This document shows positions 2,247 through 25,955 of a stretch of 64,000 nt of DNA, piece after piece. This DNA is from Rothia nasimurium (GTDB lineage Bacteria; Actinomycetota; Actinomycetes; Actinomycetales; Micrococcaceae). The stretch's first letter is position 1. Each line of letters starts with the position of its first letter. The notes below the pieces were generated by a model that saw only the letters and a program-made list of their open reading frames with translations, did not search any database and was not told the origin of the DNA. The DNA is taken from NCBI RefSeq assembly GCF_004569295.1, contig NZ_SPQC01000007.1:1-64000 (forward strand), given 5' to 3'. A program made the translations under genes and the position numbers.

Positions 2247-2329
2247 TACTAGGCTCCCTTGTTCTCGAGCGCAGCTGCGGTGTAGAGCTTTTTTAGCAGT
2301 AATGTTGCTTGTAGGACGCGGATGAAGAT

Positions 2330-2379
2330 GGGGGCTTGTAACCCGGAGGCCGCAGGTTCAAATCCTGCCCCCGCAACCA
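2330..2379 (+). other. Attachment site: 3' half of an initiator-type tRNA gene
   Basis: From the anticodon arm to the CCA end this matches tRNA-fMet. The stem-loop GGGCTTGTAACCC has the three G:C pairs typical of initiators. The T arm is GCAGG-TTCAAAT-CCTGC. The acceptor strand CCCCGCA-ACCA has A72, the initiator hallmark. The anticodon loop reads CTTGTAA rather than CTCATAA, and no D arm or 5' acceptor strand can be found upstream. It is therefore a fragment, not a working gene. This is what an element leaves at its far end after integrating into a tRNA gene. Host sequence begins to its right. Confidence 0.7.
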
Positions 2380-2384
2380 AGATG

Positions 2385-2412
2385 AGAAACCCACTCGAAA
2401 GAGTGGGTTTCT
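2385..2412 (+). terminator. Terminator of the interrupted tRNA gene
   Basis: A 12-bp perfect stem (AGAAACCCACTC with its complement) around a GAAA loop, starting 5 bases after the CCA of the tRNA fragment. It is the normal tRNA terminator and shows that the chromosome side of the junction lies here. Confidence 0.8.
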
Positions 2413-2553
2413 TCGTTTAAACTACTCAGCAAGAGAATCTTTCCCGTAGATGCTTATAAGCGGTAAGCAGGGCGTCAGTGCTCATCCGATTTATGCCTTA
2501 CACTAGTGAAGTGCTCTTCGCACAAACTTGCTTTTTTACCTATAGGGAAACTC

Positions 2554-3933
2554 ATGGCTAAATACACGCCGCGCCACGCCGCGCCCAAAAACATCGGCAA
2601 GCGCCGGGCAACTGCCCTCTCACTCACCGCCCTGCTGGCCCTCAGCATGGCCCCGGCCAACGCAGCCGAAACCGCGCCCCTGACTGAAAACAGCCAGGCC
2701 GTGCAAGAAGCAGAAGCGCTCATCCACGAAGCCCTCACCAGCGAGGGAAGTAGCCCCTCAGCTATCTACAACGATGCTCCCGAAACGCTAGTTAGCGAAA
2801 ATTTCTATGACGCCCCGGCCCAGCTGCCCACCGCTAACGGTGCCCTCATCAAGAAGGAAAACTTCACCTTCAAGGTCGATGCCAACAACGTCATCGCCCA
2901 CCCGGTAGCCCAGGCCCAGCGGATTATGTATAAGTCCACCGACCACCTGGGGAACCCCGTGGCGGTCACCGGCACCGCACTCACCACCACCAAGCGCTGG
3001 ACCGGCCCTGGTGAGCGTCCTATCATCGCCATGGCCCCCGGTACCCAGGGCATCGGGGATTCTTGTGCCCCCTCTAACCAGTTCGCAGCAGGAACCGAAT
3101 ACGAGAGCCTCGTTATCACCTCCCTGCTCAATGCCGGTTATAACGTCGTCATTACCGACTACATCGGCCTGGGCACCGTGGGCACCCACAGCTACCTCAA
3201 CCGAGTAGACCAGGGCAATGCTGTGCTAGACGCCGCCCGCGCAGCTACAGCCGCTGACCTCGGCCTGGGTAGCGCTACCTCACCCATCGGCCTCTGGGGC
3301 TATTCCCAGGGCGGCGGTGCGGTGGCGTCCGCCGGTGAACTCCAGGCCAGCTACGCCCCCGAACTTAACCTCAAGGGCATCTACGCTGGCGCCGTCCCCG
3401 CTAACCTGCAGGCCGTCACCAGCTTCATCGACGGCGGTCTTTACACCGGTTTCTCCCTGATGGGCGTAGTAGGCCTGGCTGATAGCTACGGCATCGACCT
3501 GAGCCACAAGCTCTCAGCCGAAGGCCAGGCAGCCCTCGACACTATTCGGGACCAGTGCACCCTTGACGCCGTGGGTACTTTCGGTTTTAAGAACACTCGC
3601 ACCCTGACTGCCAGCGGCCAGACCCTGGCCCGTGAAATGACCACCGACCCCCAGATCTCACAAATCATGGCCCAGAATAACCTGGGCCAGCAGGGCCGCC
3701 ACCCCCAGGTGCCCATTCTGATTGCTTCATCCTGGGGCGATGACGTGATTCCCTACCAGACCAACCGCCAGCTGGCTGCCGACTACTGCCAGCAGGGCTC
3801 CCGCGTCACCTTCTACACCCTGGCCGGCGTCACCCACGTGGCGGGTATCTTTGAGGGTATTCCCCGCGGCCTGATCTTCCTAGATCGTCAGTTTAAGGGT
3901 CTTCCCAGCATCAACTCCTGTTGGCGGTTCTAG
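2554..3933 (+). CDS. Secreted lipase/esterase of the LIP family
   Basis: An exported alpha/beta hydrolase of 459 residues. The start chosen is ATG 2554 (MAKYTPRH), after AGGGAAA; an upstream GTG at 2506 has no ribosome binding site. Residues 1 to about 38 form a signal peptide with a long basic N-region and an ANA cleavage site before AETAP. The nucleophile elbow is GYSQG, followed by GGAVASAGELQ as in the secretory lipase (LIP) family. The acid is probably in SSWGDDVIPY and the His in GVTHVAG. Family members cleave acylglycerols and fatty esters outside the cell. Two Cys pairs could form disulfides. It is monocistronic: the integrative element lies to its left and a strong terminator to its right. 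Confidence 0.88.
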   Translation: MAKYTPRHAAPKNIGKRRATALSLTALLALSMAPANAAETAPLTENSQAVQEAEALIHEALTSEGSSPSAIYNDAPETLVSENFYDAPAQLPTANGALIKKENFTFKVDANNVIAHPVAQAQRIMYKSTDHLGNPVAVTGTALTTTKRWTGPGERPIIAMAPGTQGIGDSCAPSNQFAAGTEYESLVITSLLNAGYNVVITDYIGLGTVGTHSYLNRVDQGNAVLDAARAATAADLGLGSATSPIGLWGYSQGGGAVASAGELQASYAPELNLKGIYAGAVPANLQAVTSFIDGGLYTGFSLMGVVGLADSYGIDLSHKLSAEGQAALDTIRDQCTLDAVGTFGFKNTRTLTASGQTLAREMTTDPQISQIMAQNNLGQQGRHPQVPILIASSWGDDVIPYQTNRQLAADYCQQGSRVTFYTLAGVTHVAGIFEGIPRGLIFLDRQFKGLPSINSCWRF

Positions 3934-25160: not shown

Positions 25161-25955
25161 TTAGAGGGGCTTGTCGGTCCCCAGGTGGGAAAGGACGGCC
25201 TCGTGCAGGTGGCCGTTGGTGGCTAGGGCGTTGCCGCCGTGGGGGCCGTCCGCCCCAGCCAGGGAGGTGAAACGTCCGCCTGCTTCGGTCACGATGGGGA
25301 CTAGGGCGGCCATGTCATAGAGGCCGAGTTCGGGTTCGGCGGCGGCGTCGACAACGCCCTCTGCCACCATCATGTAGGACCAGAAGTCGCCGTAGGCTCG
25401 GGTGCGCCAGACGGTGTCGGTCAGGTCGATGAAGTTATCGCGCAGGCCCAAATTGCGCCAGCCGGTGAGGGAGGAGTAGGAGAGGGAGGCGTCCTCGAGC
25501 TGGGCGACAGAGGAGACCGAGATGCGGGTAGCCTTGGCGAGGGAGCGGCCGGTGTAGGCGCCGGTGCCTTCGGCTGCCCACCAGCGGCGCTGGAGGGCCG
25601 GGGCAGAGACGACGCCGACGACGGGCTTGCCGTGGTCGAGCAGAGCGATAAGGGTGGCCCAGACAGGGACGCCGCGCACGAAGTTCTTGGTGCCGTCGAT
25701 GGGGTCGATGACCCACTGGCGGGGGGAAGACCCGGTTTCCCCAAATTCTTCACCCAGCACTGAGTCACGGGTGCGGACGCGGGACAGCTGGGAGCGGATG
25801 AGCTGTTCGGCTTCGCGGTCGGCGTCGGTGACGGGGGTGAGGTCGGGTTTGGTGTCGACGGCGAAATCGTGGGAGGTGAACTTGGCCAGGGTGAGGCGGT
25901 CTACCGCATCAGCCATGATGTGGGCCAGGCGCAGGTCGTCGGTGTAGTTAGTCAT
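25161..25955 (-). CDS. hisN: Histidinol-phosphatase of the inositol monophosphatase family
   Basis: A 264-residue magnesium-dependent phosphatase. Metal sites are [15 protein letters not shown] and, near the end, a shifted [18 protein letters not shown]. These last residues are typical of HisN, which removes phosphate from histidinol phosphate in actinobacterial histidine synthesis. Other inositol-phosphatase homologues cannot be excluded. It is the third gene of the aroA-rsgA-hisN operon and starts 22 bases after the rsgA stop. Confidence 0.87.

Follow-up and report, generated by a model that had tools for sequence, protein, structure and literature searches.

We consider it probable that the beginning of the 64,000-nucleotide stretch of Rothia nasimurium DNA analyzed here (hereafter the window) holds the attR site of an integrative conjugative element (ICE) seated in the only tRNA-fMet gene found in the genome, and that this ICE carries a circuit sensing its own integration through the reading frame of its repressor. 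By inserting, the element appears to switch the repressor from a long to a short form, with the stop codon of the short form being the tRNA anticodon read backwards.

On the plus strand, window positions 2332-2379 align with the 3' portion of tRNA-fMet, with 46 of 48 bases identical (96%, E 7.7e-16), and neither ARAGORN nor Rfam called a tRNA there, as expected for what is only a tRNA fragment. The intact gene, with anticodon CAT, lies on another contig of the same genome (G000:C127:24786-24862), and no second copy of the tRNA-fMet 5' half was found among the 127 contigs of this genome with up to three mismatches allowed. Gene and fragment share 41 identical bp (window 2339-2379, C127:24822-24862), and just left of this core lie the two mismatches, both in the anticodon loop, which reads CTCATAA in the intact gene and CTTGTAA in the fragment. 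Behind the displaced tRNA end stands a terminator-like hairpin (2380-2418, plus strand; -23.5 kcal/mol, z -6.7), the original tRNA terminator that was moved along with the fragment; in the related genome G005 this same terminator directly adjoins the intact tRNA (93% over 92 bp; the further flank differs). At element-free loci in two other relatives, G011 and G026, the left flank of the tRNA on C127 and the lipase region of the window's contig (C105) are 0.45 and 0.42 kb apart, respectively, with an unmatched stretch between them. The shared 41-base core, the element-free loci and the G005 terminator together identify 2339-2379 as attR and C127:24822-24862 as attL, and support the view that the fragment is the attR of an integrative element seated in the sole tRNA-fMet gene found in the genome. 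These results bear out most of what a first-pass annotation had read from the window alone, namely a displaced 3' fragment of tRNA-fMet with its own terminator and an altered anticodon loop, left by an element in the initiator tRNA, for which it had called for an intact gene with the same 3' end and for a comparison with element-free strains. The secreted lipase that it had placed beside the element is a gene of the host flank (2506-3933; PF03583, E 8.9e-54). The minus-strand gene series with its tyrosine integrase was confirmed, with one correction: the fragment itself lies on the plus strand. The description of tRNA-fMet as an uncommon target was only partly right: tRNA-Met attachment sites are described in the available text on Arthrobacter phages (PMC5513430, PMC10865867). 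A literature search on the initiator tRNA returned nothing. The conjugative nature of the element and the meaning of the loop change as a repressor codon had both been missed.

This meaning emerges from attL, where C127:24819-25193 (minus strand) encodes a Cro/CI-type repressor of 124 aa (PHROG 4583 'transcriptional repressor', E 2.4e-13; Pfam HTH_26, E 4.4e-6). Its frame passes the element's own tRNA terminator hairpin, which stands behind the intact tRNA and terminates on the opposite strand (-26.9 kcal/mol, z -6.7), and then runs antisense through the tRNA end; read on one strand, this DNA segment gives the tRNA end and the terminator, and read on the other it encodes the C-terminus of the repressor. 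At attL the frame stops at TGA (C127:24819-24821, host side), the antisense of TCA in CTCATAA. At attR, CAA (2336-2338, minus strand, element side) replaces this codon, and the frame runs on for 29 residues (QAPIFIRVLQATLLLKKLYTAAALENKGA) to a stop at 2249 (2249-2338, minus strand, 29 codons and stop). The attachment core lies inside the repressor frame, and the circular form (attP) present after transfer or excision, the only form besides attR in which the tail follows the core, would encode a protein of 153 aa; upon integration the anticodon bases of the host would supply the TGA at the core edge and end the protein at 124 aa. The short form would likely be active in repression and silence the ICE while it is integrated, and the long form would be inactive or unstable, such that excision would derepress the transfer genes and a newly entered ICE would be silenced upon integration. 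The repressor and the integrase would be transcribed jointly. Next to the repressor lies a divergent Cro-like gene, and two identical 14-bp repeats between the two (AGTTTAAGAATCTT; C127:25246-25259 and 25277-25290) are candidate operators. The anatomy of the locus matches, at the level of sequence, that of integration-dependent immunity, with an attP inside the repressor frame, an attB in a tRNA gene and an integration event that creates a stop and a shorter repressor (TGA at attL and CAA at attR, the same in genomes G013 and G033, with G029 as an exception), but it is found in an ICE and has a longer, conserved tail.

The tRNA-fMet locus was surveyed in G000 and in 20 of 34 genomes of the same genus. 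Of these 21 loci, ten contained sequence from an element of this kind, three carried a different insert and eight contained neither. The antisense frame carried the motif APxGFxPNGxxY together with the tRNA-encoded end exactly in seven of the ten (G000, G020, G028, G013, G002, G029, G025) and as a variant in the other three (G027, G017, G007); at the eight element-free loci this frame comprised 13-77 residues and the motif was absent. A start codon and a helix-turn-helix domain (PHROG 4583, E 1.5e-12 or better) were present in the frame in half of the ten (G000, G027, G017, G007, G029), while the repressor was broken in the other half (G020, G028, G013, G002, G025). Frames at attR were free of stops in five of six cases (G000, G020, G028, G027, G017); the attR of G029 carries a TGA, so that its tail would not be read, and the G007 insert had no attR within 60 kb. 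A tandem junction in G017 offers a natural example of a frame that leads from a repressor end of this type into a tail. According to the first-pass annotation, a fragment of this kind without a nearby integrase would speak against an element, and fragments lacking an integrase ORF are indeed present in G027, G017, G028 and G029, but in short, decayed inserts that retain repressor remains. The inserts of G009, G021 and G034 were rejected as examples of this element and left out of its counts, as they showed a transposase-like ORF (by eye) and no frame with a helix-turn-helix domain; their displaced tRNA ends measure 27-32 bases (L058, L052 and L053, respectively). Inserts of about 2.5-10 kb occur at tRNA-fMet in loci L040, L042, L043 and L056, with tandem att sites in L043 and transposase-like ORFs (by eye) in the other three. 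Overall, tRNA-fMet looks like an integration hotspot in Rothia.

The same data could be read more simply as an ordinary ICE in tRNA-fMet, whose repressor frame enters the tRNA solely as a consequence of a compact attP and whose tail has no function. Frames that run antisense through tRNA ends are often open, and at the attR of G009 and G021, whose inserts are unrelated, the frame likewise continues for 43 residues, so that an open frame alone means little. The five broken repressors at tRNA-fMet also fit this reading. Nevertheless, we regard it as unlikely, because the amino acids of the tail are kept across elements at two different tRNAs. Homologous tails follow attR fragments in other elements of Rothia, in two cases at a second tRNA with a CAT anticodon, and they align with each other, with the likeness concentrated in a segment inside them (PIF..V...T.LLLKKLYT in the best-conserved tails) rather than at the very end. 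A profile built from five tails (G000, G020, G013, G027, G017) and searched against 295 genomes of the family at E 0.05 gave eight matches, comprising its five own sources, G029, the new tail of G026 (E 3.3e-10) and a weak match in G117, which lies outside the genus and looks like chance (E 0.03). G028 and G033 were not among the matches and may lie outside the genomes drawn, and a second G017 match (83066-83122) was discarded, as it is not in a repressor frame. Among six tails (G000, G020, G013, G026, G033, and G029 with the first codon masked; the shorter G027 and G017 tails left out), pN/pS in the coding frame was 0.32-0.82 and thus below 1 in all 15 pairs, compared to 10 of 15 pairs in frame 1 and 5 of 14 defined pairs in frame 2; since the tails are short and related and the pairs are not independent, these ratios provide support rather than proof. 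No in-frame ATG, GTG or TTG is common to the tails (by eye), which argues that they are not separate genes and further disfavors a functionless extension. In addition, analogous long and short repressor forms of phage BPs differ in activity by experiment, according to the available text of PMC4557955.

The TGA is the antisense of a CAU anticodon, and therefore not only tRNA-fMet but also the second, Ile2-like CAU tRNA could serve such a switch. This second tRNA, called Met by ARAGORN, is presumably tRNA-Ile2 by its likeness to E. coli ileX, and was found in 13 places in eight genomes (eight whole tRNAs and five displaced fragments). A PHROG 4583 repressor ends at the same TGA in three of the eight whole tRNAs (G013, G033 and G000:C39; E 2.4e-11 or better), and a homologous tail continues from two of the five fragments (G013 and G033); in both latter genomes a repressor end of this type shares a contig with such a tail. 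The whole tRNAs of G007, G020, G011, G024 and G026 and the fragments of G000:C41, G007 and G013:C9 lacked both the repressor frame and the tail, although two of these three fragments read on for 11 and 16 residues, which are unlike the tails. The attL arm of G013 folded with a z of -2.5, the folded piece having been cut inside the hairpin.

The element itself extends on its right arm from attL to the end of C127 (71039) and on its left arm from attR back to the first base of C105, where the window also begins. A single 9.4-kb insert, present at the same tRNA in G020, has parts that match both contig ends. As a gap lies between the two contigs, the element measures at least 48.6 kb, and the parts on C127 and C105 are inferred to form one single ICE. 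A crude prediction gave 48 ORFs for the C127 part, missing the repressor and the Cro-like ORF, and 24 of these 48 were compared with at least one of the family libraries. Judged by these matches, the element is an integrative conjugative element: besides a site-specific integrase and att sites located within a host gene, it has genes for a MobF relaxase-helicase (TrwC, E 7e-36; MobF, above its cut-off), a VirD4/TraG coupling protein (TraG-D_C, E 4.8e-23, above its cut-off) and a VirB4/TraC-like ATPase (E 4.2e-13, but far below the curated cut-off). It also encodes an SCO6880-family protein, SSB, ParA, an RHH/ParE pair, a replication-initiator-like protein, a sigma-70 region 2 protein, a GmrSD-type protein, a DarB-like antirestriction family protein of 2096 aa (C127:56575-62865; L008:5575-11865) and an antigen I/II-like adhesin of 1233 aa (C127:66447-70148), while several ORFs of the transfer region had no family match. 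That the element is instead a temperate phage with integration-dependent immunity seems very improbable. The integrase and the repressor resemble phage proteins, and one lysozyme/peptidase (M23) protein matches phage endolysin, tail and internal-virion-protein families, but PHROGs, applied to 17 of the 48 ORFs and to the repressor and Cro-like ORFs, gave no terminase, portal or capsid family, and a relaxase as well as VirB4-like, VirD4-like and SCO6880-family proteins are present; for these reasons the prophage reading was dropped. The coupling protein of the G000 ICE had no match at E 1e-10 in G013, G020, G026, G027 and G033, so that the other tail-bearing elements would be remnants, mobilizable elements or elements of another kind. 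A second antigen I/II-like adhesin (1228 aa, L128:4983-8669) belongs to another such Rothia element at a different tRNA.

Between the contig start and attR, all genes of the element lie on the minus strand. The first (1-264; end at 264 and surface-protein-like character by eye) is the beginning of a surface-protein-like gene, truncated at the contig end; C105:1-536 shows 86% identity to L040:8038-8575 of the G020 element, where it forms the start of a 381-aa ORF that had no match in a Pfam search. The tyrosine integrase of 281 aa (536-1381; PF00589, Phage_integrase, E 1e-14) is 84% identical to that of the G020 insert at the same tRNA and contains R140, K162, H216, R219, H242 and Y251, which we take to be its catalytic residues. 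Three small ORFs separate it from the repressor tail, namely one at 1441-1671 without a Pfam match, which resembles ORFs next to the integrases of C60 and G020 (by eye), a glutaredoxin-like one at 1705-1971 (PF00462, E 2.2e-7) and one of 88 aa at 1980-2246 that belongs to no family in Pfam.

The closest known counterparts of this arrangement are found in phages. In the available text on phage BPs and its relatives (clusters G, I, N, P), attP lies inside the repressor frame and attB in a tRNA gene; in BPs itself a bacterial base makes a TGA at attL, and the prophage form of the repressor is 33 residues shorter (PMC4557955, PMC9262239). The Rothia system shares this layout, with an integrase downstream on the same strand, but differs in sitting in a conjugative element, in a tail and an integrase without an ssrA-like tag, in the three small ORFs between them and in a stop made from the antisense of CAT-anticodon bases. 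For Mycobacterium abscessus, the accessible text of PMC8092301 likewise describes an integrase directly downstream of the repressor or 3-5 genes apart and a stop codon near attL, but in prophages whose long repressor typically carries an ssrA-like tag. The nearest integrases in the phage collection (38-40%) are those of the Gordonia cluster CW phages McGonagall, Jeanie, GRU3 and GMA5, which are presented as integration-dependent in the available part of PMC5559632. The repressor frames of McGonagall, GRU3 and GMA5 cross an antisense tRNA end, as in Rothia; however, these are 17-kb phages at tRNA-Lys, with repressors ending in -VAA, -TAA and -AAA and integrases in -AVA and -IVA, unlike the Rothia tails and integrase. 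Arthrobacter phage Galaxy resembles the Rothia element in an attP with a tRNA-Met 3' end and a terminator hairpin, but its attP lies outside the repressor gene, as far as the accessible text of PMC5513430 on this tRNA-Met site shows. The Galaxy and Orcanus attP sites were rejected as instances of the same switch, as no repressor frame runs across them; in Galaxy, a strong terminator-like hairpin stands right behind the tRNA end (L060:2501-2585). No relative of the repressor was found in the viral contigs searched, and none of nine viral contigs with the tRNA pattern (eight with a tRNA-Met by ARAGORN; L081 ends inside it) had a Cro/CI-type frame across it (by eye). Several of the 19 actinobacterial integrase loci (of 37) that come from named genomes, scored for the frame alone, were open across an antisense end resembling a tRNA. 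In Tn916-type ICEs, transfer genes are expressed after excision and circularization by read-through transcription across the joined ends; the Rothia element would also turn on transfer upon excision, but by a changed protein C-terminus. A literature search found no such switch in an ICE in the texts available to it. Given the ICE context and the ends without ssrA-like residues, we do not count the Rothia switch among the phage systems, although it would work like one.

The integrase ends in -KNQR and the tails in -KGA, -EGH, -EAQ, -EVN and -YYA, with a host ssrA tag of AESKRTDFALAA; without ssrA-like ends, the published route of long-form inactivation has no direct counterpart here. We slightly favor a model in which the conjugative element senses integration by a repressor C-terminus changed by recombination, CAU tRNAs serve as its sites and the hydrophobic tail replaces the ssrA-like tag. 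Conceivably, though we doubt it, the long form has another role, such as that of an activator or an integration aid, and the switch changes function rather than stability. The position of the conserved segment inside the tails instead of at their very end would suit such a role, as would a stabilized BPs long form that appeared to raise its own promoter modestly in the available text of PMC4557955, but a hydrophobic tail could also be a degradation signal of another kind. If the favored model is true, a switch proven in phages would operate in conjugation as well: the act of excision would be enough to activate transfer, and integration would both silence the element and exclude a second copy, no separate signal being required. 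The same logic would recur at two CAU tRNAs, and the conserved tail would represent a possible second way of disabling a long-form repressor.

Several further loci were observed at the second CAU tRNA and elsewhere. At the second CAU tRNA, the genome of the window carries another element end, whose repressor is of the same kind (G000:C39:118008-118084, L130). In G026 an integrase has a tail next to it (L109, G026:C2:508073-511156), and the stretch before this tail has only some 10 bases in common with the core of the second tRNA, as if an element had inserted there at a secondary site. The flank of the G013:C9 fragment (L133) resembles that of the whole second tRNA in G026 (L122, G026:C4; by eye), and G013 may therefore hold elements in tandem there. 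Finally, G000:C60:7003-9496 (L092) contains an integrase 61% identical to that of the window together with similar small ORFs, and this integrase adjoins a whole 75-nt tRNA-Leu-like gene (TAA).
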